From a virus, in IMG/VR virus record IMGVR_UViG_3300020377_000394, positions 1 through 43,632 of that record: a stretch of DNA of 43,632 nucleotides. The stretch is one strand, 5' to 3'. Positions 9,075-43,596 of the stretch are shown here, in pieces (positions within the stretch are counted from its first letter, which is position 1; every line of letters starts with the position of its first letter). The notes beneath the pieces were generated by a model. The model was not told the DNA's origin. It made no database searches and saw only the letters and a program-made list of their open reading frames with translations. The translations under genes were made by a program, and so were the position numbers.

Positions 9075-11336
9075 TTACTTATAAAATTTATCCCACTTAC
9101 CAAATGAGTAATCGTCTCCGACTTCGAAGTCGCAACCCACAGGGCAACCAGGAATCGAAACACCTCGATCTTTTTGAACGAAGGATTTCAGGTTACTACA
9201 ATAGACCTCCATTTCATCTTCTGGAACTTCGGCAAGAATCGAGTCATGCACTAGTCCGAAGATTTTGGAGTTCATTCCATTTCTATTGATGTAATGTTGC
9301 ATATCTATCGCACCCAATAGGTTTATGTCTGATGCGACTGATTGTACAAGAAAGTTAATTCCAGACCTTACTTCGTGAGACGCAATACCTTTATCTCGTG
9401 ATTTAGCATTGGGAAGCCTACGCTTCCTTCCGAACTGTGAATAAATGAACGCATTGGAACGAATGAACGCTCCACATTCATCTAACCACTTTTTCAGATT
9501 AGGGAATGATTGGAAATATTCTGAAATAACTCTACTTGCATCGTGCATTGAGAACTCTGAGCCAGAGTCCTTCGTAACCTGCCACGAAATCTTAGCTGGG
9601 CCAGCACCGTACATTATACCAAAGGTGACAGCTTTCGCCTGTTGACGCTTAGCGCCATAGAGTTCATCTACTTGTTCGACTTCGCATGGTAGATTAAAGA
9701 CTTGTTTTGCGATACTCGAGTGGAAGTTGCCTCCACTTTTGAATACCTCTTGCAAGCCCACGTCTTTCGCCAAGACTGCGGCAACATACACTTCTGCCGT
9801 TGTCAAGTCCATAGAAACGATTTTGTGTCCCTCTCGTGCTTTGATACAACCTTTCACAGTCGGGTTGTCTCTAGGCAACTGTTGCATATTCAACTTACCA
9901 CTAGAAGATAGACGGCCCGAAGTAGTACCATGCAGGTTAAATCCTGTACGTAATCTACTATCTCTATCAAGATTCGGTATAATTTTATCAAGATAGGTTG
10001 TTTTAATTTTGTTCTTCTGTCTAATTTCTAGTATGTGTTTGGGTACTGCGTGTTCTTCTGCAAGTTGTCCTAAGACTTCTGCATCAGTACTATGGGCACC
10101 TGTACCCGTTTTCTTACCCGTTGGGGTTAGATTTATATAGTCAAATAAAAGGGATCGTAGCTGAACTGTGGAGTTAGGGTTAAAGTCCTTACCCTGTGCC
10201 TTTTCAAAAAGTCTCACTTCAGGAAATTCGTATAGTTCTGCAACTGCGTTCTCTATATCTTCCTGCATTACACCCTGAGCAAACTCTAGTCGCTCACGAT
10301 GGAAAGGAACTCCATTGTTCTCTACTTGTCTTAAAAAGTTACAGCCCTCTAGTAGAATATTCTCATAGACCCATAAGAGTCTCTTGTTCTTCTCGATTGC
10401 TGGTCTCATCTTTTGATACAATGCCATTGTAACTACTGCGTCCATAGCCGCATAGTTCTGCATAATATCAAAAGGAATCATGTCATAACTAAAAGATTCT
10501 TTCAGTATGCCATGCTTTCTCCGATACTCAATACCCCAATCTTCTAACGGTTTTTCATAATCTCCATAAGGAGTATGCTTCATCGCTAGTTGTTTTAGAC
10601 CATGAGTACCAGGGTTCTCATCAAACATATAATGCATAAGCATTGTATCTTCGAAGTTTGGAAACTCAAAATTAAAATGGTAAATAAACCATTGTAAATC
10701 GAACTTCGCATTGTGAAATACTACAGTTTTCTTGTTGAAGAGTTCCTGCATTTTTGCTTCGACTTCTTCATCAATTACGTCTGCGTCACAATATATACCG
10801 TGATCAGGCTCATAAGACATAGAAAATCCAAGCATATAACCGTCCCTACAATATAACGCACTTGTTTCTGAGTCAAGTGAGATATATGGAAGTGGGGCGT
10901 CCACAGCGTGTTGTAGAAAATCCATGATTTTCTCTTTGTCTTGTATGCCATAACATTTATCCTCTGATAGTTTCTCTATCTTTAGTTCACCGCTAACATA
11001 GCCTGCAATACTGTCTACTGCTTCTTCAAAGGCTTTCTTAGCTTCAGGTTTAAATTTAATAATGGCAGGATTCATAAGAGCAAGAAACTTCTCGTCTATT
11101 ATCTTACCATTGTATTCGGTTACAGATGTTTTCCTAGTGTACTGTTTAAATGCCTCTGCACCCACTAGGATTACCCATTCGTAATCATCTGTATCTATCT
11201 CTAAATCAACATCTTTCTTAAGAACTTTCTTGACAGAACTATCAGAACATAATGCAAAACGGTCAAATTCAAACTCGAAATATTTATCGAAGTTTGTACT
11301 TGTTGGCTTTGTTTCAATAAGTGCTATTTGAGCCAT
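9075..11336 (-). CDS. polA: DNA polymerase, family A, with 3'-5' exonuclease
   Basis: 753-aa replicative polymerase. Exonuclease motifs: D155-x-E157 (SLDSETSA), N209-x3-D213 (FHNAKFD), Y295-x3-D299 (NYAAMDA). Polymerase motifs: A with catalytic D510 but divergent sequence (SMDLTTAEVY instead of DYSQIELR); B as R564-x3-K568-x3-F572-x3-Y576-G577; C as LVHDSILAE (H697, D698). The residue equivalent to E. coli 762 is Phe, the state often associated with virulent phages. No 5' nuclease domain. Clear GGAG ribosome site. The primase and nuclease-like genes are directly upstream. Confidence 0.96.
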   Translation of the reverse strand: MAQIALIETKPTSTNFDKYFEFEFDRFALCSDSSVKKVLKKDVDLEIDTDDYEWVILVGAEAFKQYTRKTSVTEYNGKIIDEKFLALMNPAIIKFKPEAKKAFEEAVDSIAGYVSGELKIEKLSEDKCYGIQDKEKIMDFLQHAVDAPLPYISLDSETSALYCRDGYMLGFSMSYEPDHGIYCDADVIDEEVEAKMQELFNKKTVVFHNAKFDLQWFIYHFNFEFPNFEDTMLMHYMFDENPGTHGLKQLAMKHTPYGDYEKPLEDWGIEYRRKHGILKESFSYDMIPFDIMQNYAAMDAVVTMALYQKMRPAIEKNKRLLWVYENILLEGCNFLRQVENNGVPFHRERLEFAQGVMQEDIENAVAELYEFPEVRLFEKAQGKDFNPNSTVQLRSLLFDYINLTPTGKKTGTGAHSTDAEVLGQLAEEHAVPKHILEIRQKNKIKTTYLDKIIPNLDRDSRLRTGFNLHGTTSGRLSSSGKLNMQQLPRDNPTVKGCIKAREGHKIVSMDLTTAEVYVAAVLAKDVGLQEVFKSGGNFHSSIAKQVFNLPCEVEQVDELYGAKRQQAKAVTFGIMYGAGPAKISWQVTKDSGSEFSMHDASRVISEYFQSFPNLKKWLDECGAFIRSNAFIYSQFGRKRRLPNAKSRDKGIASHEVRSGINFLVQSVASDINLLGAIDMQHYINRNGMNSKIFGLVHDSILAEVPEDEMEVYCSNLKSFVQKDRGVSIPGCPVGCDFEVGDDYSFGKWDKFYK

Positions 11337-17029: not shown

Positions 17030-17749
17030 TTATTGAACTCTTTCTTTTCTAGCTGAACCGTCGTAGTCAGCACAAACTAAACCACGTCTTGTAAGCATGG
17101 TTTTTACACCTCTTACTGTTTTACCGATTTCATCAGCGATTGCTTCGACAGTCATGTCGTCAATCTCTAAGTCAGCTAGAGGATCAGCTTTGCCTGAACC
17201 CTTAGTTTCTTTCTGCTTAGGTATAGCGTTAATTTCGCCAGCTCTAAGTAATGAAAGAGCCTTACCTCTGATAGAGTTTACACTCTTACCAAGAGACTCA
17301 GCAATCTCTTCAATGAAAGCACCATCGTTGACCATGCCAACAAAAGTTGCTTCTTCGTCTTCGCTGTAAGTTTTTACAGACTCAACTTTAGGAGCAGGTT
17401 TAACATGCTCTGTAAGTTGCATTGATAAGATTTTCCCTTGAATAGACTTCGCACTAAAGTGTCCGCCTTCAAAGTTTGATGCAATCTCAGCATATGTGTA
17501 CTGACCTGAATTGTCAGTTACGAAGTTGCTAAGAGTGGCTTCTTGTTCGTCACTAAAAGATTTAGTGTTTGAGCTAGAAGCAAGCTCGACATCATAACCC
17601 ATCTTTCTAAGCTTTGAACTAACACTTCTTACTGAAGTTTCTAGCTCTTCTGCAGCGTTAGCAACAGTAGCTTGAGAGACTGGGCTTTCAGAACCTACGA
17701 AGTTCTCGAGAGATGATGTTCTCTCATCTGTCCATTTAGGTAATGCCAT
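17030..17749 (-). CDS. Tandem-repeat HTH (SANT/Myb-like) DNA-binding protein
   Basis: 239 aa built from three to four related helix-turn-helix units: residues ~4-52 (WTDERTSSLENF ... SVRSVSSKLRKMGY), ~63-112 (FSDEQEATLSNF ... SAKSIQGKIL), ~125-172 (YSEDEEATFVGM ... SVNSIRGKALSL) and a final half (TVEAIADEIGKTVRGVKTML). Each ends in a recognition-helix pattern S-x-x-S-I-x-x-K. Related single units are at 25534, 36558, 37649 and 42242. Its own terminator follows. Probably an abundant DNA-binding or regulatory protein; partners unknown. Confidence 0.75.
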   Translation of the reverse strand: MALPKWTDERTSSLENFVGSESPVSQATVANAAEELETSVRSVSSKLRKMGYDVELASSSNTKSFSDEQEATLSNFVTDNSGQYTYAEIASNFEGGHFSAKSIQGKILSMQLTEHVKPAPKVESVKTYSEDEEATFVGMVNDGAFIEEIAESLGKSVNSIRGKALSLLRAGEINAIPKQKETKGSGKADPLADLEIDDMTVEAIADEIGKTVRGVKTMLTRRGLVCADYDGSARKERVQ

Positions 17750-18506
17750 TTGTTTCTCCTAATAAATTAGCTAAATTTGTTATAATAATGACTCCTCGTT
17801 CACGAGCAGTCTGCGTTTTGGCTGACTCAATTCCTGACTCATTTATTAGATGAGTACAATCCTTTGTCAGACTATTTTTTACGGCATAGCCGTGTTGTTC
17901 CAGAACTTCTGCAGCACGAGCCTTCGTGGGATATGAATTGAGTCTACCTGAAATACAGACTGTTCCTACCGTTTCTCGTTTTACAACTTTAGTTGCTGAG
18001 AAACTGAAAGGTAGGTTTGAATCGTATTCGTTGGGGTAAAATTCTTCATCTAACCAAGTTAGAAGGTTTGCTGTGGCTTTTGGGCCAATACCCGCTTCAG
18101 TACAACTTTTCTCTGAAATATCTTCGAGTGTCGAAATATTCTCGCATAATTTTTGAGAAGCTGACCGACCGAAAAGTGGAATGGAGAAAGCTGGCAACAA
18201 GGTTTGTAAATCAACTGATTTTGACTTCTCAATTTCAGTAACTAACTTAGCTGCCATCTTCTCCGAGCCTAGTCTGTTGGATATATCCTCTACAGTAAGC
18301 TCATACAGTTCTGGGTAATCATCGAGCTGCAACTTAGATACAGTTGCTGGCCCGAGACCTTTTATTTTGAGAGCCTTTCCGAAATGCTCTAGTTTTTTAC
18401 TCCATTGTGCTGGACACATCTTGTTGAAACAATAAAGTAAGTCGTTAACAAACTCTAGTGTATTGTCACAAGAAGGACAGTTACTGGGTGGTAAAATTTC
18501 GTTCAA
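17736..18506 (-). CDS. NAD+-dependent DNA ligase, C-terminal half (Zn finger, HhH, BRCT)
   Basis: 256 aa matching the distal half of bacterial LigA. Four-Cys zinc finger C10-x2-C13 ... C26-x4-C31 (NCPSCDN, MCPAQ), helix-hairpin-helix repeats (IKGLGPATVSKL, EAGIGPKATANLL) and a C-terminal BRCT domain (VGTVCISGRLNSYPTKARA). No adenylation domain; that is in the separate gene at 22519-23475. The start is TTG 18506 with a GAGAGAG stretch upstream. Two-subunit NAD+ ligases are known in phage T5. Confidence 0.9.
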   Translation of the reverse strand: MNEILPPSNCPSCDNTLEFVNDLLYCFNKMCPAQWSKKLEHFGKALKIKGLGPATVSKLQLDDYPELYELTVEDISNRLGSEKMAAKLVTEIEKSKSVDLQTLLPAFSIPLFGRSASQKLCENISTLEDISEKSCTEAGIGPKATANLLTWLDEEFYPNEYDSNLPFSFSATKVVKRETVGTVCISGRLNSYPTKARAAEVLEQHGYAVKNSLTKDCTHLINESGIESAKTQTARERGVIIITNLANLLGETNGIT

Positions 18507-18717: not shown

Positions 18718-19657
18718 TTGCTTTAATATCTCCTAATATTCTTTCTGCCATTGCGGCATGGGCGTCTTCTAATGGGTGGTCGCGTTCACCGATTGGGTGT
18801 CCAAGGCGAGTTGCCATGTCATACATACCTTCTGACTCTAGCCATGGTAGTTCTGTTACGGCTGTCTTTCTATCTATATCTAGCGAATCCCACCAGTTGT
18901 TCGTGTTTTCATAAATAGGTTCGTCTAATAAAAATAGTAAAGGTCTGTATTGACCACTTGAATATAGGTAATGAAGCTGCGGTATGCCTTTTGCCTTCAG
19001 CATGTATTTTACCGCCATCATATTACCTAGTGTAAGACGCAAGTTATAATGTGCATTTCTAATACGCATCATATAGCCTCGCATATAATTATCTTCGCCA
19101 GGCTCGTACTGTTGGTCTATGTAAACAGTACTTGTCTTTTTTGCTTTGTATGTTGGTTTTTCTAATGCCATTCTGCCCCAAGCAGATACGCACCAACTCC
19201 AATCTCCAGTCAGGTTAGACAGTCTTAGATTCTCTAGTCTATTTATACCTGACCACATACATACTACTAAGTCAGGCCAGCCTTCTCTATCGTACTCTCT
19301 ATTAGTTTGGAACTGCTGTCCATAATGTACTTGCCCTATATCTGTATATGGTTTTGTAGGGTCTCCTGCTGGCAGAAGATTATTTCTATCTTCCTTAGCA
19401 ACATGTGATTTGTTTGTTACTTCTCCCGTGTGCCTTACATGTTTAACATTCTTCAGTCCTGTACTCCAGTATAACTTTCGTCCTATAACTGCGTTTTGTA
19501 CTACTCTCTGGATATAATCATTTCCAGCACCAACTTTAGCCTCGTTCCATTCTAGGTGGCCAGCCTCTCGTGAGACTATATTACTAAATCTGTCTCTCTT
19601 TTTGTCTTTGAGTTCCATTCCATTTGTGAATGAACACCCTGCCCATAGTATACTCAA
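18701..19657 (-). CDS. SGNH/GDSL hydrolase-like protein
   Basis: 318 aa if started at TTG 19657, which overlaps the carbamoyltransferase stop as TTGA and gives LSILWAGCSFTNG. Block I is GCSFTNG (catalytic Ser), a candidate block III Asn is in SGINRLENL, and the C-terminal D-x-x-H is EDAHAAMAERI. Such enzymes remove or transfer acyl groups on glycans or lipids. With the adjacent carbamoyltransferase and 2OG oxygenase, a role in modifying a sugar or modified base is inferred. The longer ATG start (19705) would overlap the upstream gene by 52 nt. Confidence 0.7.
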   Translation of the reverse strand: MSILWAGCSFTNGMELKDKKRDRFSNIVSREAGHLEWNEAKVGAGNDYIQRVVQNAVIGRKLYWSTGLKNVKHVRHTGEVTNKSHVAKEDRNNLLPAGDPTKPYTDIGQVHYGQQFQTNREYDREGWPDLVVCMWSGINRLENLRLSNLTGDWSWCVSAWGRMALEKPTYKAKKTSTVYIDQQYEPGEDNYMRGYMMRIRNAHYNLRLTLGNMMAVKYMLKAKGIPQLHYLYSSGQYRPLLFLLDEPIYENTNNWWDSLDIDRKTAVTELPWLESEGMYDMATRLGHPIGERDHPLEDAHAAMAERILGDIKANGLLK

Positions 19658-21009
19658 AATACTGGTACTCCATACTTCTTCTCGAACTCCACAGCGTCCT
19701 TCCAAGTATCTACTATTGGTTGTCCTTTTATATTCAAACTTGTATTCAATAACATGGGAATCCCTGTGCGTTCATAATATTCTTCTAAAATCCTTCTCAA
19801 TACACTAGGACAATCAGGCTCTACAGTTTGCACTCTACTTGTTCCGTCTACATGAACTACAGAACTGTAGTCATGCTTTGCTTTTGCAACATACTGCATA
19901 TACGGATTAGTTATTCCTTCAAAGTATTCGTCTGCAAACTCTGATAGTATAGCTGGAGCGAATGGTCGAAACTGTTGCCGTTTTTTAATGCGATTAACTC
20001 CGCGCTTAATATTATGCCTAACATCACCAAGAAGACTACGATTGCCCAATGCTCTGGGTCCAAATTCCGCTTTGCCATTTGCTACTCCTACTACTTTGTT
20101 TTTTAGTAACTGTGTTACTACTATTTTTGGGTTGATATGTTGTTGTATATCTGTGCCGATATACGGACTATACTTTATATGTTTTTTAGTGTATGATAAT
20201 GCCGCACCTAAACTACTCCCTGCATCGCCTGGGTTTGGATAAATCCAAACATTATCGAAGTAGTGGTGTAGTATTTTACTATTGGCTACACAGTTGAGTG
20301 CGACTCCACCTGCATAGCATAAATTTGTTCCCCAGTTAGCGGCTAGTCCTACTAACTTTTCGATTTCTAACTCTGCGTGAGCCTGGGCACTTGCAGCGAT
20401 ATCGTAGGGGTGATGTCCTTTAAAATCTTGTAATGAGAATCCTTTGTGCCAGTTTGCCCAGTCATTGAAGCACCACAGCATATCTACGCATTTCTCTCCG
20501 TAGGCTGCCATTCCCATAGTTATATATTCATCTTCATTTGGCTTCAAACCAATACGCTTGGTGATTGCTGAGTAGAACAGGCCAATACTATATGGATAAT
20601 TTTTTTCATAAACTTTTTTGAAATTTTTATCTTTTACTTGCCAAATACTGCAAGTATTCCATTCTCCAATCGCATCAATCACGAGAACTACCGCGTCCTC
20701 GGTAAATGGTGAAGTATAGTACGCTCCTGTTGCGTGGCTTTCGTGATGTTTTGTATGGTAATCACATTCATCAAAAATTTTTGTTGAAACAGGGACTTGT
20801 GAATGTGCTACACGTCTTTCGTTCTTTAGCGGTACATCTTCGTAAAAAACCGATATATCTGCGTCCACATTTCTGAGATACTCTGGGTTGATTGGGTCAT
20901 TCTTTTTTCTTGTCAATCTCTCGGCGTGTTTAGCCCAGACGACTTGGTCATCTTCAAGTAATGCTACTGAGGCATCATGAAATCCCTCTGAAATCCCTTT
21001 TACAATCAA
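19654..21009 (-). CDS. Carbamoyltransferase (NodU/TobZ/CmcH family)
   Basis: 451 aa from TTG 21009 (TTGA overlap with the oxygenase stop, AGAGGAG upstream), giving LIVKGISEGFHDASVALLED. The N-terminal Kae1/ASKHA-like domain shows HHESHATGAYYTSPF with metal-binding His residues and VLVIDAIGEWNTCSI; the C-terminal YrdC-like region includes EFGPRALGNRSLLGD and FRPFAPAILSE. It transfers carbamoyl from carbamoyl phosphate via carbamoyl-AMP to a hydroxyl group. Acceptor unknown: modified DNA base, sugar or nucleoside. Confidence 0.92.
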   Translation of the reverse strand: MIVKGISEGFHDASVALLEDDQVVWAKHAERLTRKKNDPINPEYLRNVDADISVFYEDVPLKNERRVAHSQVPVSTKIFDECDYHTKHHESHATGAYYTSPFTEDAVVLVIDAIGEWNTCSIWQVKDKNFKKVYEKNYPYSIGLFYSAITKRIGLKPNEDEYITMGMAAYGEKCVDMLWCFNDWANWHKGFSLQDFKGHHPYDIAASAQAHAELEIEKLVGLAANWGTNLCYAGGVALNCVANSKILHHYFDNVWIYPNPGDAGSSLGAALSYTKKHIKYSPYIGTDIQQHINPKIVVTQLLKNKVVGVANGKAEFGPRALGNRSLLGDVRHNIKRGVNRIKKRQQFRPFAPAILSEFADEYFEGITNPYMQYVAKAKHDYSSVVHVDGTSRVQTVEPDCPSVLRRILEEYYERTGIPMLLNTSLNIKGQPIVDTWKDAVEFEKKYGVPVF

Positions 21010-21560
21010 GCTCCTCTTTCTCCTTTTCTCCAAACTGTGTAATTATATTTTAGTGCACCCGTTACCCTACCCGCTCGGTGTAGATGTGCTGATGGGAACA
21101 TTATGCACATACCTGTTTTCGGTTTCCAACTGTCTATTCCTTCTAGTACGAAATCTCCTCCGTTGAAGCCCTCATTCAAAAAGACACTACAAGATAATCT
21201 ATTTGCAGGTGTCCTTTCGAATAAATCTTCTACTGATTCATCTTCATCTCTGTGCCAACCTACTTCCTGTCCTTCAGTATACATATTACAAAAATGAGTA
21301 TATTTATTGTCAATAAGATTGAAGTTATAACTGCCCACATTAAACTCATTGAAAACACTTTCGAACAAAGGTAAATACTTATCAGTAGGATTACCAACAT
21401 GTCTAAATAGCCGTCCTGTCTGCCAACCATTGTAGTTTCCTTCTTTTATGTCTCGGTTTATAAAATTATCTACAGAATTGATTATTTCCTGACATTGGTC
21501 AGGGGTAAGCATATCTTCTATTACTGAAAAATATGTGTGTCCTACTCTATGAATTTTCAC
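21006..21560 (-). CDS. 2OG-Fe(II) oxygenase
   Basis: 184 aa from GTG 21560 (MKIHRVGHTYFSVIEDMLT); a 29-codon longer frame runs inside the neighbouring small gene and is less likely. Iron ligands: H-x-D in EVGWHRDEDES and distal His in SAHLHRAGRVTGALKYN, with the following basic residue for 2OG. The EGFNGGDFVLEG turn is typical of the fold. Coupled to the carbamoyltransferase, so it may create the hydroxyl that is carbamoylated (inference). Confidence 0.83.
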   Translation of the reverse strand: MKIHRVGHTYFSVIEDMLTPDQCQEIINSVDNFINRDIKEGNYNGWQTGRLFRHVGNPTDKYLPLFESVFNEFNVGSYNFNLIDNKYTHFCNMYTEGQEVGWHRDEDESVEDLFERTPANRLSCSVFLNEGFNGGDFVLEGIDSWKPKTGMCIMFPSAHLHRAGRVTGALKYNYTVWRKGERGA

Positions 21561-22353: not shown

Positions 22354-22519
22354 GCCCGTTCTCCCATTCATCTAGCAGTAATTCAAAATACTCTGGGTCG
22401 TCCATTTCTTCTATCATTTCTCTGAAAAACTCTATAGTTGGAATCTCTGAACCAGATGGTATCTTGGTTATGTATACTCTGTATGCTTTCTCTAGTTGTG
22501 ATTCTAAATATAATAACAT
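22328..22519 (-). CDS. 63-aa acidic hypothetical protein
   Basis: ATG 22519 follows the ligase stop as TAATG, with AGGAG upstream. The product is helical and acidic (FFREMIEEMDDPEYFELL). No motif recognised. Confidence 0.65.
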   Translation of the reverse strand: MLLYLESQLEKAYRVYITKIPSGSEIPTIEFFREMIEEMDDPEYFELLLDEWENGLGTQRYTH

Positions 22520-23475
22520 TACACTCTCCTCACTACTTTAGGTATTATTTCTCCACTTCTAATCACTTCTACATTACAACCGATTTCTAAATCCAACTCG
22601 TTTATAAAAGCAATATTATGAAGTGTAGCTCTTGATATTGTTGCACCACCGATTTCGATTGGCTCTAGCAGTCCGATAGGAGCAACAACTCCACTCTTTC
22701 CTGTGTTCCATTCAACATCTAATAGTTTAGTTACTACGCCTGCCTCTCTGGTTTTATATGCGTATGCTCCTCTAGGGTGGTGTGACGTGTGTCCTAACTT
22801 ATCAAATGCTCGGTATGAATCGAGTCGAAATACAATGCCATCGTGTGGGAACTCAGCATAATCGCCCATGGTTACTACATTGAACCAGTTGTCGAGTAGC
22901 TTCATGTCCTCACACCAGCGTTGACCAATATATGGTTGTATTCCGTATGCAACAAAAGTCAAGTCACGAGACTTGAACTCATCTACATCTTTTAGATTTA
23001 GAGCGCCTGCAGCATAGTTCCTTGCGTTCTTGATAGTTTTAGGAGCTACGACCTCGCCTGTAATCTGACGGACGCCAGAAAACAAGGCATAGCCTGTCTG
23101 TCCTGTTTCTAATACTTTTGGTACTATGTGCTTGATTTTATCTGTGATGTCTAGTCCTGCAATACCATCTCCTCTTGTGAGAGCTTGGTGAAGTATGCCA
23201 TCAACATAAGTGATTGATATGGCTGCACCGTCCAACTTAGCAGTTGTAACGGCAGCTTCGTTGCCCCAATCTGGAGCGTCATCTTCGTTTGCAAAAACTT
23301 TTTGTAATGAAAACATCTGGAAGGGGTGCTTGAAACGACTGTCCGTAGCTGAGCCCACTTCATCTGTATTGACATTCTCTACAAGTCTATCATACACTTC
23401 ATCAGGTATGATAGGGCGACCATTGAAATATGACTCGCGACACTTGGTTAAAAATGCTCTAATATCTTTATTCAT
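22519..23475 (-). CDS. NAD+-dependent DNA ligase, adenylation/OB half
   Basis: 318 aa. The nucleotidyl Lys80 is in TTAKLDGAAISITY (K-x-D-G motif I), with QALTRGDGIAG (motif III region), TGEVVAPKTIKNARNYAAG, DGIVFRLDS and WNTGKSGVVAPIGLLEPI marking the rest of the adenylation and OB domains. A shortened Ia-like head (IIPDEVYDRLVENV) is present. It lacks the Zn/HhH/BRCT half, supplied by 17736-18506. The ATG lies exactly 7 nt after the -10, so the mRNA is probably leaderless. Confidence 0.93.
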   Translation of the reverse strand: MNKDIRAFLTKCRESYFNGRPIIPDEVYDRLVENVNTDEVGSATDSRFKHPFQMFSLQKVFANEDDAPDWGNEAAVTTAKLDGAAISITYVDGILHQALTRGDGIAGLDITDKIKHIVPKVLETGQTGYALFSGVRQITGEVVAPKTIKNARNYAAGALNLKDVDEFKSRDLTFVAYGIQPYIGQRWCEDMKLLDNWFNVVTMGDYAEFPHDGIVFRLDSYRAFDKLGHTSHHPRGAYAYKTREAGVVTKLLDVEWNTGKSGVVAPIGLLEPIEIGGATISRATLHNIAFINELDLEIGCNVEVIRSGEIIPKVVRRV

Positions 23476-29400: not shown

Positions 29401-29772
29401 CTACTTACTGTTTATCTTATCTTTCGCTGTACCAGCGTATAAGCCAAACCATGCTGCACCAGCACCAACAATGATACTGATTAGACCTGATTGCTCAAGT
29501 GTTGGGTCTGGCAAATTCATAAACCACATTGTGGAATAGTAAAGTAAGAATATGTATATTGAAAGGAAAGCTCTCGGGAAGATTCTCCATGCGTCAATCA
29601 TGTTAGATAAAAATATCCAACGTTGCCATGGATTTTCTGGCTCCTTGTTTGCTTCCATTTCTACAATCTTAGCTTTGAGATTGCTATTTTCAGTAACGAG
29701 TTCCATGAACTTACTTAAGTCAATTTCAACTTCGTTTCTTGACATATCACCGCTAAATCTTTCATCGGCCAT
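29401..29772 (-). CDS. Holin-like membrane protein
   Basis: 123 aa. Soluble charged N-terminus with a short coiled coil (KFMELVTENSNLKAKIVEME), then two hydrophobic spans (FLSIYIFLLYYSTMWFM and GLISIIVGAGAAWFGLYAG) and a short charged tail. The last span and GxGAAWFGLY motif resemble phage holins, but it is 5 kb from the lysozyme. Could be any small membrane protein. Confidence 0.55.
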   Translation of the reverse strand: MADERFSGDMSRNEVEIDLSKFMELVTENSNLKAKIVEMEANKEPENPWQRWIFLSNMIDAWRIFPRAFLSIYIFLLYYSTMWFMNLPDPTLEQSGLISIIVGAGAAWFGLYAGTAKDKINSK

Positions 29773-30490
29773 TTATATCTCCAATCCAGTCCAACCATTC
29801 TTCTCTCCATACCTTGCCAGGGTGCTCCTCATGATTTACATTACACCAGTCACACTTAGGTGGGTGGAAATGGAAAGAGATTGATATTCTTGGGCCTAGG
29901 GTTTCTACCCTATGGTAAAGTTTCGGTGGTAGCCAGAGAAGGTCGCCCTCCTCTAAGTCTATCACTTGGTCTACCGTTGCCTCGCTAGGTTTGCAGTCAT
30001 ATTCCGTTTCATTGTAAATATACCAACGGACTGTGCCCCTAACGTGGAACAGAAAGTTTTCGGTAGTGTCTGCATGGACAGGAAAACATCTAGCCTTCTT
30101 TTGACTAGACATATAAATATTCGCTTGTCCTCTACCGAAATACTCTTCAAAATCTTCGCATTGGTTCCAGAGTGTCTTGTTCAAGAACTCTGATAGGGTT
30201 AGTACGAAACTACTACCTTCCCACCATTTCTGGAAGATTTCACGTTTTTGTAACTTGTGTCTTTGTTTCTTGTGGCAATACTTCTTGCCTGTGTTCTTAT
30301 CTATTATCTGTAGTTGTGGCATGCGGTCATGCCCCATCAATTTATAACTATTTAAATACTGGTCTGCCTCTCTCCAACTAAAGTAATCTTTGAAGCGTGG
30401 GCCATCACCTTTTACGACAAACCACTCTGCTTTCTTCCTCTTTTCTAGGAACTCTTCGAATGGCATTTTTAGTAGTTCATCTAATTTCAT
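29762..30490 (-). CDS. JmjC/cupin-type oxygenase
   Basis: 242 aa. H-x-D in CFPVHADTTENFLFHVRGTV, the strand VIDLEEGDLLWLPPKLYHRV giving the distal His, and SISFHFHP at the end match JmjC/ribosomal-oxygenase proteins (YcfD/ROXA-like). An additional Cys pair (KCDWCNVNH) near the C-terminus could bind zinc. Members hydroxylate ribosomal proteins or other protein side chains; target here unknown. Confidence 0.75.
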   Translation of the reverse strand: MKLDELLKMPFEEFLEKRKKAEWFVVKGDGPRFKDYFSWREADQYLNSYKLMGHDRMPQLQIIDKNTGKKYCHKKQRHKLQKREIFQKWWEGSSFVLTLSEFLNKTLWNQCEDFEEYFGRGQANIYMSSQKKARCFPVHADTTENFLFHVRGTVRWYIYNETEYDCKPSEATVDQVIDLEEGDLLWLPPKLYHRVETLGPRISISFHFHPPKCDWCNVNHEEHPGKVWREEWLDWIGDINGR

Positions 30491-31026
30491 TGGTAATCCT
30501 GTGCGTCGCTTTGTCTTCGTTCTTCTTCTTTGCTTATCTCGTTAAATCCCCAGTCGCCACTCCATACTGCAACTGCATATCGAGTGCCTTCCCATACTCC
30601 CTCTACCCAATGTAGAGCCATAGCTGAGAATAATACTGCATCACCTTTTTCTAGGTGGCAGTTCTCTCCTTCAATTATTAAATCACCACCTTCAAACTCA
30701 TCATTCAACAAAATAGAAATACTTAGATTTCTATTTCGTTTCATAACTGTTTTACCTTTTGTTTCTCTACCATCTCTGGAGTACCACACAGCGTCTCTAT
30801 GTGGAGCGAAACTTTGTCCAACTTCATAACATTGGACTCTGGTTGCTATAATCTTTTCATCTCCTAGTATTTCTTGTGATTTATCTAGGACTGCTTGTGG
30901 CACTTGAAACTCTTGTATCTCGTATCTATTTTGTAAGTGGTCTGATTCTTTCTTGTTGCAAGAGTCTATAACTTGCTGACATTCTTCATCAGTAATAAAG
31001 TTTTTATATAACTTAAAACCTTTCAT
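30487..31026 (-). CDS. 2OG-Fe(II) oxygenase
   Basis: 179 aa from ATG 31026 (ATGA overlap with the cytochrome stop). H-x-D in SFAPHRDAVWYS, the E-F-E-G-G-D turn in LLNDEFEGGDLIIEG, distal His in SAMALHWVEGVWEGTRYAV with the 2OG-binding Arg. Like prolyl-4-hydroxylase relatives. Substrate unknown. Confidence 0.85.
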   Translation of the reverse strand: MKGFKLYKNFITDEECQQVIDSCNKKESDHLQNRYEIQEFQVPQAVLDKSQEILGDEKIIATRVQCYEVGQSFAPHRDAVWYSRDGRETKGKTVMKRNRNLSISILLNDEFEGGDLIIEGENCHLEKGDAVLFSAMALHWVEGVWEGTRYAVAVWSGDWGFNEISKEEERRQSDAQDYQ

Positions 31027-31472
31027 TTTTCTGGAAAGCCTGCCTGTACAAACTCTCCAATGGTAGCTATTTCTGCATCTGATAACATGGCTGCTTGTCC
31101 CCACATGGTAGATGACATACTACCTACTTCTTCTCTATTTCTGTAAGCATTTAGTCTGCCTACTATGTAATCTTTACTTTGTCCTGTAAGTGCTGGGAAT
31201 ACTGCCATACCTTGTCCTTGCTGTCCATGACAAGCTGCACAACCGCCCCATAAACTTCTGATACTGCTAAATTCATCGCCAGCAGCTAACGCTTGTTTTC
31301 TTCTTTCCATTTCGGCAGGTGTTCCCCACATCTCTACATACTCTCTATAACATTCCCCTGTGCATGAGCCTACACTCTTGCCTCCAGTATACTCTAGGTC
31401 TGGATATATTACTAATGCAAAGAACAGGGCTATGATACCTGTCCCGCTGATTGCTTTTAAAAATTCTGACAT
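31023..31472 (-). CDS. Membrane-anchored c-type cytochrome
   Basis: 149 aa. N-terminal anchor or uncleaved signal at residues ~9-24 (SGTGIIALFFALVIYP), then a periplasmic linker with C37/C41, and a class I cytochrome c domain: heme motif C78-A-A-C81-H82 (GGCAACHGQQGQG), YIVGRLNAYRNRE helix, axial Met123 in SSTMWGQAA, and a closing helix. It would carry electrons at the outer face of the inner membrane and needs the host cytochrome c maturation system. It lies between two 2OG oxygenases with 4-nt coupling downstream, so it is part of the phage operon rather than host contamination. Confidence 0.85.
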   Translation of the reverse strand: MSEFLKAISGTGIIALFFALVIYPDLEYTGGKSVGSCTGECYREYVEMWGTPAEMERRKQALAAGDEFSSIRSLWGGCAACHGQQGQGMAVFPALTGQSKDYIVGRLNAYRNREEVGSMSSTMWGQAAMLSDAEIATIGEFVQAGFPEK

Positions 31473-31475
31473 AAT

Positions 31476-32015
31476 TCATTTTTGTAAAAACCACACTACT
31501 AAACTATCTCTATGTCCTTCAAGCACGGGCAGTACCTGATGCTCTACGTTTGGCATAAAGAGTATTGGGTGGTCTTTCTTTAATTTTACTACTGTTTTCT
31601 GCCCTTCCATTACTATACCGCCAGGGTGGAATCTATCTGGCATTTTAAACTCCATCTCTCCACCTTCAAACTCGCTAGGGTCGTTGAGTAGACAGGACAT
31701 TGATAATTTTCTATATCCTCTGCCATCGCCGTCAGTATGCCACTTATAAAAGTGTCCTTTATGATACCTAGCTATTTGTAATATCTCTGGTGTATAATCG
31801 TAACCCTGTTCGTTAATCCATTCTTCCACTAATTGAATACCTTCTGGCTGTGGAGCGCCTACTCTTTTACTTCTTTGTATGTATCTACACTCGGTCTGTC
31901 TGAAGTTCGGGTCATAACCTCTGCCAGTAAATCCGTCTATTCCTAGATGAGTACTAAAAGTATTGGTACAAATGTCTATTATTTCTTGTGGTAGACGTTC
32001 GCACTCATGTATCAT
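31476..32015 (-). CDS. 2OG-Fe(II) oxygenase
   Basis: 179 aa from ATG 32015 (ATGA with the glycosyltransferase stop). H-x-D in YKWHTDGDGRGYRK, S-E-F-E-G-G-E turn, distal His in MPNVEHQVLPVLEGHRDSLV with Arg for 2OG. Its position after a glycosyltransferase is compatible with glycan or protein hydroxylation (inference). Confidence 0.85.
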   Translation of the reverse strand: MIHECERLPQEIIDICTNTFSTHLGIDGFTGRGYDPNFRQTECRYIQRSKRVGAPQPEGIQLVEEWINEQGYDYTPEILQIARYHKGHFYKWHTDGDGRGYRKLSMSCLLNDPSEFEGGEMEFKMPDRFHPGGIVMEGQKTVVKLKKDHPILFMPNVEHQVLPVLEGHRDSLVVWFLQK

Positions 32016-32830
32016 TGTAGAGCTTCCCACAAGTCTTGCACTTTAAATGCTGTTTTCCACAATTTACTTGCAATATCTTTTCTAGGATAGCTTGCTTTAC
32101 CATGTGGTGAGTACTTGGGGTGCCAGATTTGTGAACTCAATGAAGTAAAATGTAAATGCCATATGTCATCAATATCATACTGTTGTTGTGTCTTTCTATC
32201 AATGGCTGGCCCATCAGTTACATAGCCGTCAAATGAGTTCCATCTAGCGTCTATTCTTTTAATTATTACATCTTCTACCTTATCTCTGTAAGGACTTCCT
32301 ATCTTTTCACTAAATACATTCTTGTAGCCCCAGTTACACTTTGCTATCTGTTCGATTGGGTCTATGTAGCGTGCTGCCTTTTCACAATCTATCAAAATGA
32401 CACTATCACTAAACCAACCTCTTTTGTACTCCGTATCTTCAAACTTCTTAGGATTCATGTTTAGCGTGTCCCAAACCATTCCAAAAGCGCAGTCGCCTAG
32501 GTCTGTATCATATAGTTCTCCTATATCTCTGAAGTTGATTTGGTCGCAGTCTAGGTAGATTGCACGCCCTTCCCAATTACATAGTGTGGGGATAGCATAT
32601 CTAAAACATGTGAATGGCGTTCCCCAACCTGTCTTATCCCAGTCCTTAAACATACTAGGTCTTAACATTGTAATGTCTAGCTTCCTGTCGGTATTTTGTA
32701 ATAGAGTATACACTAATATTCTCTCTATCCACTTATCTTCCCATTCAGAAGTTCCTATAAAAATTCTAATTGTATCGTCTGACAACTTGTTTTCCATTTC
32801 AAAAAAGTGCTTTTCTTGTTCTTTATTCAT
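32012..32830 (-). CDS. Glycosyltransferase, GT8-like
   Basis: 272 aa. The nucleotide-sugar D-x-D motif is in RAIYLDCDQINFRDIGELY, preceded by FTCFRYAIPTLCNWEG, the GT8 arrangement. IWHLHFTSL near the end fits the family His motif. Donor and acceptor cannot be told; DNA, lipopolysaccharide or virion protein glycosylation are possible. Confidence 0.78.
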   Translation of the reverse strand: MNKEQEKHFFEMENKLSDDTIRIFIGTSEWEDKWIERILVYTLLQNTDRKLDITMLRPSMFKDWDKTGWGTPFTCFRYAIPTLCNWEGRAIYLDCDQINFRDIGELYDTDLGDCAFGMVWDTLNMNPKKFEDTEYKRGWFSDSVILIDCEKAARYIDPIEQIAKCNWGYKNVFSEKIGSPYRDKVEDVIIKRIDARWNSFDGYVTDGPAIDRKTQQQYDIDDIWHLHFTSLSSQIWHPKYSPHGKASYPRKDIASKLWKTAFKVQDLWEALQ

Positions 32831-40862: not shown

Positions 40863-41084
40863 CTACTGCACAACTCCATTGATTGTGATTTGACCGACTT
40901 TGCTTACTGGCTCATCGAGTTTAGCTTTCGGGTCTACGAAGTCAATCGCAGTTCCATCACAAAACCCTACAAGTTTTCTGCGTTGGATTTCTTTCCTTGC
41001 CATTCTGCCGTCAAAGTCCTGCTGTGTAGCCATATCTTTGAGTTGCTTGTCTGTGTGATTTAATAATAATACTGTGTTTGCCAT
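40863..41084 (-). CDS. 73-aa hypothetical protein
   Basis: MANTVLLLNHTDKQLKDMAT then a basic middle (RMARKEIQRRKLVGF) and a beta end. Own promoter (41127), AGGAG leader and terminator: a single-gene module. Unknown function. Confidence 0.65.
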   Translation of the reverse strand: MANTVLLLNHTDKQLKDMATQQDFDGRMARKEIQRRKLVGFCDGTAIDFVDPKAKLDEPVSKVGQITINGVVQ

Positions 41085-41126: not shown

Positions 41127-41166
41127 ATTATACTTGGTTTTCAACTGCCTGTCAAGAACTATTTTA
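41127..41166 (-). promoter_or_regulatory. sigma70-type phage promoter
   Basis: Upstream AAAATAGTTC, -35 TTGACA (41155-41150), 17-nt spacer, -10 TATAAT (41132-41127). Start about 41120. Confidence 0.88.
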
Positions 41167-41198: not shown

Positions 41199-41232
41199 AA
41201 GAAGAAAAGAAACCCCGCGCTTTGGCGGGGTT
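41199..41232 (-). terminator. Intrinsic terminator of the large RNA
   Basis: Minus-strand hairpin AACCCCGC-CAAAGC-GCGGGGTT (8 bp) followed by TCTTTTCTTCTT. Confidence 0.88.
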
Positions 41233-42124
41233 GATAAACTATAGTGTTTAATGCTTTCAATGTAGGGCTATCGCATGCCTACTCTTGTGTGATGTCTACT
41301 GCTTACGTGCGAAAAAGGCTTATGTAGATTACTCACTTTTTTACTCTATACTAAGTGGAGCGACCACTACTTCTAAAGATTTCCTCGCTCTGCTACTTCC
41401 CTTACACTTTCAGTCTGTATAGGTATTTTTTACGCTTGCCACCGAATCGGTTGAGAGGCGACGGATTACACTTTGCGAGTTAGTAATCAATAATATTGGA
41501 GCTGTTAGCTTATATAAAAGCGCGACCTTTTATCTCTCATCTTCTCATCTACGACTTCAAGACCTATTGCAAAGGTGATAGCCTGTTGTCAGAGAGACTC
41601 ATTCGCTTAGGACTCAGGATTACGCAACCTCACGAACTCCTATATAAGCGGGTTTCTCACACCCCCGAAACTATTATCGCGTAGCTTACGGTTACAATCG
41701 CGGTCATTGTTATCGCTGTTGACCTGCGGTATGCTCATTGTTTTGAGTGAACTCATACTGCCCACTAACTCCTCACTTGTTTGTAGCGCATCAAGAGTCA
41801 TAGCGCTTGTTGTTCAATAAAGTGTAGTGGGAACCGCTGAACTGTGTTGGCTGTCATGTTCACCCCGTACTACGCGTGCAGTCCTAAGAATATCTGCACT
41901 ACCACATCATTCGCTTACTTTCATCTATTGATATACTTTTCAGCGTAAATGTGCTGTTTTTCCACTTCTGTTATACTGTCGCTCTGAAAAACGCTGCGTA
42001 AAAGCCGAGCCATCAGTCGGAGAGACTTGGACTTACGCGGGGTGTTCACTCTCCGAAGATTGCTACTTACTGGACTGCCATTCTCGCCGTTGTCGAAAAA
42101 TGTATTCTTTTTCAATTTTCTATA
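41199..42124 (-). ncRNA. Candidate giant structured non-coding RNA (~920 nt)
   Basis: Bounded by a strong promoter (42131) and an intrinsic terminator (41199), with no convincing ORF on either strand across ~900 nt of a genome otherwise fully coding. Many local helices: GTGCAG/CTGCAC (41876-41881, 41894-41899), GTAGT-GGGAAC/GTTC(A)CC..ACTAC (41824-41834, 41858-41873), AGCGC/GCGCT (41785-41789, 41803-41807), GATTAC/GTAATC (41464-41469, 41483-41488), AGTGG/CCACT near 41354. Near the 5' end, GCGTAA/TTACGC (41996-42001, 42033-42038) crosses CGGAGAG/CTCTCCG (42018-42024, 42049-42055): a pseudoknot. It resembles in size and phage setting the GOLLD/ROOL class of ornate RNAs; identity not shown. Confidence 0.7.
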
Positions 42125-42241: not shown

Positions 42242-42568
42242 TTAGGAAGCTATTACTTCTAGTCCAAGTGCTTCTGCAAGTTTTTGAAGGTCTTGCTTGC
42301 CTGACTTCACAAGTGTTGGCATTGCGATGTCGAAGTGCGCTTCGATAGCAGACACGAATTGTGCTTTGCTAACTACTGGCTCGCCAGTTTTAGTTGTTCT
42401 TGGTTGAGCAACATATACGCCTTCTCTCGAAAGTTTAGCAATAATACTTCTAGTAGTTTTGCCGAATTGTTTTGCTAACGCGTCTACAGTTTCTCTGCTT
42501 GGGTTAGCGGTGTAGTCGTTTGTCATTTGAGCGACCATCTCGTCTGTGTAATTTTTAGCTTGTGCCAT
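42242..42568 (-). CDS. HTH (SANT-like) protein
   Basis: 108 aa from ATG 42568 (GGGAG upstream); a longer in-frame ATG at 42625 is also possible. HTH unit NYTDEMVAQMTNDYTANPSR then ALAKQFGKTTRSIIAKLSRE-GVY, followed by VSKAQFVSAIEAHFDIAM, paralogous over its length to 37649-37987. Own promoter and 3' stem-loop. Confidence 0.78.
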   Translation of the reverse strand: MAQAKNYTDEMVAQMTNDYTANPSRETVDALAKQFGKTTRSIIAKLSREGVYVAQPRTTKTGEPVVSKAQFVSAIEAHFDIAMPTLVKSGKQDLQKLAEALGLEVIAS

Positions 42569-42890: not shown

Positions 42891-43511
42891 TTACGCTTGG
42901 CTTAAGATTTCTACAATTTTTGTGATGAGGGCGAGTCTACCTGTTGACTTTACATTGTAGTCAATGCTGTGCCATTCTCCGAGTGTTGTGTGTACGCGCT
43001 CTTTGAGAAGTGTCATCTGGTCATACTTGCTGAGTGCAACTGCATCGTTGGGCGAAAACTTCCAAGATGTTAGAGGCGAAGATTGTCTGTTGCCAATTCT
43101 GACACGCTGTTCTTCTTCAGATATGCTTAGCCATAGTTTGATGAACTGCACATCTTGTTTAGCCTCCCAATCAAGGACATTTGCCATGAAGTCGTCATAC
43201 TGAGCATCTGTGCACCAGCCATTCATCTTCTGAACCATAGCGCGGCTGTACCAAGACCTGTCGAATAATACTATTTGGTTGTCGCCAGGTAGCTTTCTTT
43301 CCCATGACTCTAGCCAGTTCTCCATGTCCCATGCACTTGGCATGTTGCTGAAAGAAACAGAATATTTGCTAGTTGGAAGGTAGTGTGTTAGCTCACGGAT
43401 AGTTCCTGTTTTGCCCGCTGTGTCGCGTCCTTCCAAAATAACTGCAACTTTACCAAAGTCTTTTGCAACGATTTCGTTGAGTTTGATTTGTTGAAGTTGT
43501 AGCTTTGTCAT
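42891..43511 (-). CDS. Polyphosphate kinase 2 family protein
   Basis: 206 aa. Walker A ILEGRDTAGKTGTIRELTHY, Walker B/lid VLFDRSWYSRAMVQ (the PPK2 D-R-S-W-Y-N-R motif), and KFSPNDAVALSKYDQMTLLK as in the family. PPK2 moves phosphate between polyphosphate and nucleotides, most often regenerating NDP/NTP. It is a little shorter than cellular PPK2 (about 230-300 aa). Own promoter and AGGAG leader. Likely supports nucleotide supply from host polyphosphate during infection. Confidence 0.9.
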   Translation of the reverse strand: MTKLQLQQIKLNEIVAKDFGKVAVILEGRDTAGKTGTIRELTHYLPTSKYSVSFSNMPSAWDMENWLESWERKLPGDNQIVLFDRSWYSRAMVQKMNGWCTDAQYDDFMANVLDWEAKQDVQFIKLWLSISEEEQRVRIGNRQSSPLTSWKFSPNDAVALSKYDQMTLLKERVHTTLGEWHSIDYNVKSTGRLALITKIVEILSQA

Positions 43512-43558: not shown

Positions 43559-43596
43559 ATTATATCACGCCAATATGGTTCGGTCAAGAACTATTT
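43559..43596 (-). promoter_or_regulatory. sigma70-type promoter of PPK2
   Basis: Upstream AAATAGTTC, -35 TTGACC (43587-43582), 17-nt spacer, -10 TATAAT (43564-43559). Leader ~40 nt. Confidence 0.85.

Follow-up and report, generated by a model that had tools for sequence, protein, structure and literature searches.

To our knowledge, only a few very large structured RNAs of bacteria and phages have been described, and the roles of those from phages have yet to be established. The phage-borne RNAs GOLLD and ROOL assemble into RNA cages (PMC12286853), and conservation in GOLLD is higher in the 3' part than in the 5' part (PMC12286853). In phage ICP1, an RNA of about 0.8 kb that is devoid of open reading frames (ORFs) is the most abundant transcript of the phage (PMC7567579). 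The locus discussed here is part of a 43.6-kb virus record (IMGVR_UViG_3300020377_000394), the whole of which was analysed and is referred to as the window (43,632 nucleotides). The minus strand between positions 41205 and 42124 almost certainly encodes a structured non-coding RNA, as judged from sequence comparison, and this RNA very probably lies outside the known Rfam classes.

The transcription unit and its genomic setting

The window represents part of a T5-like phage genome. Its PolA-family polymerase is about 45% identical to those encoded by T5-like phages of Vibrio, Pantoea, Salmonella and Erwinia, a D5 protein is encoded at 17030-17749 (phrog_323, 1e-44), and separate genes at 17736-18506 and 22519-23475 encode the two pieces of a split NAD-dependent DNA ligase, an arrangement also annotated in the T5-like phages atrejo and Thalassa. 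Other genes of the window include a minus-strand cluster at 29762-32830, in which two 2OG-Fe(II) oxygenases are accompanied by a JmjC/cupin-type protein and by a glycosyltransferase family 8 protein, and a carbamoyltransferase at 19654-21033. No tRNA genes were detected in the window using ARAGORN, in agreement with the preliminary description of this DNA, in which none had been noted next to the RNA.

The predicted RNA of approximately 920 nt (41205-42124, minus) is delimited by the anatomy of its promoter and terminator and is further supported by covariation and by the lack of a conserved ORF. The promoter (TTGACA-17 nt-TATAAT, 42159-42131, minus) matches the sigma-70 consensus at 12 of 12 positions. 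The predicted start is at about 42124, and the predicted end lies in the U-tract after the intrinsic terminator AACCCCGCCAAAGCGCGGGGUU (41232-41211, minus). The terminator stem differs among relatives with its pairing kept (CCCAGC/GCUGGG, CCCGGC/GUCGGG and CCUCGC/GCGAGG). The next gene (40863-41084, minus) is preceded by a promoter of its own at 41127-41155 (minus), which is also a 12/12 consensus match and is conserved in relatives. The promoter and terminator that had been proposed for the RNA are thus both present. Short transcription units follow each other in series in this part of the window, with near-identical strong promoters of the form TTGAC[ACT]-17/18-TATAAT at 43587, 42882, 42664, 42159 and 41155 (minus), the last three of which are perfect 12/12 matches.

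The earlier view that these roughly 900 nt contain no convincing gene also holds. The longest ORFs inside the RNA span 62-64 amino acids, and conservation of a reading frame, which had been named as evidence against a non-coding RNA, was looked for in the relatives. The ORFs of 64, 62, 53 and 45 amino acids were rejected as coding candidates, since the relatives show in-frame stops and insertions or deletions that are not multiples of three; no conserved reading frame was found.

The upstream neighbor of the RNA, which is conserved, is a gene for a small HTH protein (42242-42568, minus; phrog_323, 1.3e-7) that resembles the N-terminus of T5 D5. This gene was used as the anchor for finding relatives, and further loci were obtained from additional searches. 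At least 593 relatives of the small HTH gene are present in viral contigs. In 79 of the 90 distinct loci with enough sequence, the HTH gene is followed by a promoter at the equivalent place, a stretch of 0.69-1.40 kb and the next promoter, and some of the 11 exceptions may merely have an undetectable first promoter, as the pattern used to find it was strict. Across the 79 loci, the median promoter-to-promoter length is 1.05 kb. A terminator hairpin precedes the second promoter in 77 loci, and the longest inner ATG-initiated ORF has a median of 62 amino acids and exceeds 100 amino acids in seven. Records with a significant match to a covariance model carry one copy of the RNA each.

In many contigs (loci L001-L080), the small HTH gene recurs as a diverged second copy about 3-4.5 kb downstream of the first. 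The RNA locus is also adjoined by a gene for a PPK2-type polyphosphate kinase (42891-43511, minus; Pfam, 1.4e-42), which has its own promoter and is kept beside the RNA locus in many contigs; it is possibly an auxiliary metabolic gene of T5-like phages. Among 20 loci, tRNAs were found only in L076, where two tRNA genes (9903-10054) lie about 3 kb past the RNA unit.

A search of 50,697 records of cultured phages using blastn with four subfamilies did not reveal a similar RNA, and the few short matches of the window RNA in cultured phages correspond to the promoter region of the query. The exact motif of a sister subfamily had no match in the genome-contig collection, and a gap of about 1 kb was not seen at the equivalent place in atrejo and Thalassa.

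Covarying helices and exchangeable modules

Two structural claims of the preliminary description were not confirmed. Crossing helices had been proposed to form a pseudoknot near the 5' end, and these are not conserved among nine sequences. The arm CGGAGAG (42055-42049) is found only in L001, L012 and L167 and is absent in the other six, and in L012 and L167 the opposite arm reads CUCCCCG, with a mismatch that is not compensated; the pseudoknot was therefore dropped. A high density of structure had been claimed as well. Single-sequence folding is no better than chance (z = -0.84 for the minus strand and -0.19 for the plus strand), so folding by itself is no basis for a claim of dense structure. 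Judged by covariation, the true structure is a different set of helices.

The domain at 41899-41824 (A5) contains the helix GUGCAG/CUGCAC (41899-41894 / 41881-41876, minus), which is 100% paired with five of six pairs double-changed in nine relatives; its variants include GUGCAA/UUGCAC, AUAUGA/UCAUAU and GUGUGA/UCACAC. It is followed by the helix GUAGU/ACUAC (41873-41869 / 41828-41824, minus), which is continued by GGG/CCC (41866-41864 / 41831-41829) and UGA/UCA (41856-41854 / 41840-41838) and appears in relatives as GUAUU/AAUAC, GAGAU/AUCUC or GAGUA/UACUC, with six double-changed pairs. The domain at 41702-41615 (A6) begins with the helix CGCG/CGCG (41702-41699 / 41681-41678, minus; AGUG/CACU and AGCG/CGCU in relatives). 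It also contains a near-invariant element, UUUCGGGGGUGUGAGAAACCCGCUU, within 41615-41672 (minus), with the stem GUUUC/GAAAC (41671-41667 / 41656-41652), and after this element a stem UAGGA/UCCUG (41642-41638 / 41619-41615, minus); both stems are covered by the pair counts for this domain. All eight closest relatives contain a 20-nt core, CGGGGGTGTGAGAAACCCGC, which occurs in just 10 stretches of the whole viral collection.

The 3' part consists of two domains, S4 (A2; 41484-41340, minus; covariance models R2 and R3) and S5 (A1; 41341-41258, minus; covariance model R1). The helices of S4 are CUCG/CGAG (41479-41476 / 41387-41384), CCG/CGG (41450-41448 / 41444-41442), ACCU/GUGU (41424-41421 / 41407-41404), CUUUA/UAGAG (41378-41374 / 41348-41344) and AGUGG/CCACU (41368-41364 / 41358-41354). 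Between the last two stems, within 41349-41373 (minus), GAA (41373-41371) faces AGUA (41352-41349) in an internal loop that is probably, from its sequence, a loop-E or sarcin-ricin motif. S5 is composed of GUGA/UCAC (41336-41333 / 41292-41289), UCUAC/GUAGA (41328-41324 / 41299-41295), GUAGG/CCUAC (41282-41278 / 41266-41262) and CAA/UUG (41287-41285 / 41260-41258). Its helices are replaced in relatives by GCGAC/GUCGC, GUAGU/ACUAC, GAUAC/GUAUC, GAGAC/GUCUC and GGAAC/GUUCC.

Compensatory changes are frequent in these helices. For the group to which the window belongs (9-10 sequences), the four domains were aligned using MAFFT, and these alignments were not fitted to a structure. The helices were picked on the same alignments in which the double changes were counted, and in these 14 of 24 pairs are double-changed in S5 (38 double-change cells against 14.4 after shuffling, 0/500), 13 of 25 in S4 in 10 sequences (37 against 13.0, 0/500) and 11 of 17 in A5 (26 against 7.2, 0/500, 98.7% paired). 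A6 is weaker, with four such pairs and 10 cells against 3.7 (0/500). When the partners are slid by 1-3 columns, pairing drops to 23-56% in all four domains. With a tree-aware null, in which substitutions were moved between columns along the tree, the observed summed covariation is 58.9 for A1, 60.9 for A2 and 73.7 for A5 against approximately 0 ± 7 in the null (8-11 SD, 0/300 each), and a weaker 19.5 for A6 (about 3 SD, 1/300). On the minus strand, 55 cells are G-U and 25 are A-C, a bias to be expected of an RNA with the minus-strand sequence. Since the whole-family MAFFT alignment is poor for the most divergent subfamilies, structural statements are restricted to the aligned domains. An R-scape-like, tree-aware test of all pairs, which has little power at depths of 10-40 sequences, yielded no significant pairs in the window's 11-sequence group, one significant pair in alignment A7, inside the S4 structure, and six in 39 sequences of the second subfamily, all of them compatible with pairing.

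The models built from the 3' domains reach sequences on which they were not trained. The S4 covariance model, trained on 10 sequences, recovered L322 (1.3e-9), L060 (1.4e-7), L319 (9e-6), L057 (8e-4) and L328 (1e-3), all at the same locus and on the same strand, so that cmsearch with this model extends to other subfamilies. The S5 model R1 recovered the untrained L057 (1.5e-5) and L068 (2.6e-6). One iteration raised the number of matches to 23, and 18 of 25 S4 pairs are then double-changed in an alignment that is fitted to the model. Weak matches of the iterated model R3 in two whole records (E 0.11 and 0.6) lie off the RNA locus and were set aside as chance.

L060 and its relatives have blocks in common with a second large subfamily of 39 RNAs. 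In the 5' core of this subfamily, RNAalifold windows score z = -10 to -34 relative to shuffled columns, and a covarying H-type pseudoknot, GUGA[GGC]AUCAC...[GCC], occurs in 21 RNAs with none expected; its alternative stems include GAGU/ACUC. L074 and L078 combine the 3' domain of the window's group with another 5' half, and RNAs that otherwise cannot be aligned share short blocks of 88-95% identity. These mosaics and recurrent blocks indicate evolution by module exchange. Across 78 RNAs, AGUA (AGTA) is the most enriched 4-mer (1010 against 631 expected) and the UUCG tetraloop CUUCGG occurs 81 times against six expected, both counts being inflated by related sequences. Enrichment of the 11-nt receptor of the GAAA tetraloop (CCUAAG/UAUGG) was not found.

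The description of this locus as a giant non-coding RNA with its own promoter and terminator is supported by a unit layout kept in 79 of 90 loci, by covarying helices and by the lack of a conserved frame. At the level of sequence, the comparison establishes a conserved, structured and free-standing unit.

Possible roles of the RNA

During infection, the host RNA polymerase would transcribe the RNA, which would then accumulate as a stable RNA. Less certainly, the RNA may serve as a modular scaffold of rigid helical domains, and this scaffold might, like GOLLD and ROOL, assemble with itself into an RNA particle, or it might hold host or phage proteins. Multimer formation or packaging, as proposed in the preliminary description for RNAs of this sort, is likewise conjectural. 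The fast drift of the sequence, the swapping of whole modules and the retention of pairing alone suggest that selection sees the shape of the RNA and not coding or pairing with a target. An architectural mechanism, by either self-association or the holding of proteins, is put forward here as plausible and tentative. For the statement as a whole, which is that of a free-standing, folded non-coding RNA of about 0.92 kb from an RNA family of T5-like phages not described before, expressed in infection and architectural in action, the balance tips gently in favor. A broader proposal is rather doubtful: giant phage RNAs of this kind would form a new superfamily, separate in origin from GOLLD and ROOL, whose members swap modules and build particles of RNA alone or of RNA and protein inside infected cells. 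If it were true, lytic phages would have repeatedly invented large architectural RNAs.

Multiple other explanations have been considered. The RNA could bind and occupy a host machine, such as the ribosome, RNA polymerase or an RNA-binding protein, and act during takeover as a decoy or inhibitor instead of a self-assembling scaffold. The consensus host-type promoter, which suggests early and strong transcription, would fit this role, and AGUA and UUCG, the elements enriched here, are characteristic of RNAs that bind proteins, ribosomal RNA among them. Binding of GOLLD to ribosomes in pull-downs has also been reported, as cited in PMC12286853. However, the RNA has no similarity to 6S RNA, ribosomal RNA or other Rfam RNAs, and an ornate structure of about 1 kb is unnecessary for a decoy, which makes this role unlikely, although it deserves serious consideration. 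Phage-related precedents exist for a long RNA that acts as an antisense or sponge by pairing with transcripts of the phage or the host, for example the PLE transcript that is complementary to leaders (PMC7567579). Such a function appears improbable here, as no complementary stretch in the rest of the window, the phage's own genome, exceeds 13 nt, the same length as in shuffles.

The preliminary description had also raised the option of a divergent GOLLD or ROOL member. Size, phage origin and ornate helices agree with this, as does a 3' part that is more widely shared and a 5' part that can be swapped, as in GOLLD (PMC12286853). The comparison with known families argues otherwise. All 4227 Rfam families were scanned at gathering scores against the window and 20 relatives, and no match was obtained except for the two tRNAs in L076; GOLLD, ROOL, OLE and HEARO, the four families proposed for comparison, were thus all negative. 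With E ≤ 10, the RNA region of the window gave only terminator-related noise, and with E ≤ 1 the sister subfamily gave no match. A directed GOLLD search of eight virus records was negative apart from a spurious 15-nt match outside the RNA (5.8 bits, E 2.7), and a directed ROOL search of the same number of records, which had no positive control, was negative. The window is also free of tRNAs. Membership in GOLLD or ROOL is already largely refuted and very improbable, and the other option raised at the outset, that of a new class, is the one these scans favor.

There is equally little to recommend a DNA element, such as a replication origin or a packaging or recombination site, or a small-protein gene that evolves fast. 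A long phage region without ORFs can be an origin, and ORFs of 53-64 amino acids are present, but the helices change in a compensatory manner and tolerate G-U more than A-C, and the ORFs of relatives are interrupted by stops and frame shifts. A cis-acting leader, riboswitch or attenuator is hardly credible, because the downstream gene has its own 12/12 promoter past the terminator and differs between relatives, known leaders are far shorter than 0.9 kb, and the weak Trp/Leu-leader score that speaks for it is caused by the terminator.

Comparison with known large RNAs

The closest functional precedents of the RNA are GOLLD, ROOL and the 0.8-kb non-coding RNA of ICP1. Like GOLLD (RF02032), it is phage-borne, is not smaller than about 0.8 kb and is rich in ornate helices (PMC12286853). 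Its 3' modules S4 and S5 reach more relatives than its 5' half does, a layout similar to that of GOLLD, but the modules themselves are unrelated to the GOLLD model. Unlike GOLLD, it is not linked to phage tRNA genes, a linkage frequent in GOLLD, and it carries other conserved motifs. With ROOL (RF03087), it has in common that it is a large, phage-borne and separate RNA with many local helices, whereas it is longer, is not matched by the ROOL model and has no tRNA neighbors. OLE and HEARO are also large structured bacterial RNAs, but an OLE-type membrane protein or a TnpB-like nuclease was not seen among the flanking genes examined.

The ICP1 RNA resembles the window RNA in that it occupies an ORF-less gap of about 1 kb in a lytic phage (located at L340:20098-21108), has a terminator and yields no Rfam match above threshold. 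It differs in belonging to another type of phage and in its locus, which lies beside the lysis cluster. As a homolog it was rejected: the best R2 match (E = 0.1) is on the wrong strand, the best R1 match has E = 1.9, and BLAST gave no match to the window RNA. Diverged relatives of the ICP1 RNA (L340:20150-21130, minus, Vibrio phage ICP1) are present in other Vibrio and in Shewanella phages, and it appears to represent a further large RNA class, undescribed and without an Rfam family.

The window RNA adds a well-supported class to the large structured RNAs, one that is present in most of the examined contigs of this T5-like virus group. Its dozens of strongly diverged sequences could be used for modeling guided by covariation, for cryo-EM and for knock-out experiments in a cultured host. 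Its evolution as a mosaic of modules, together with the ICP1 parallel, may suggest that giant RNAs are common yet overlooked in lytic phages. Compared with the open-access literature, large phage RNAs are a known kind, and the family to which the window RNA belongs appears to be a new one within it.
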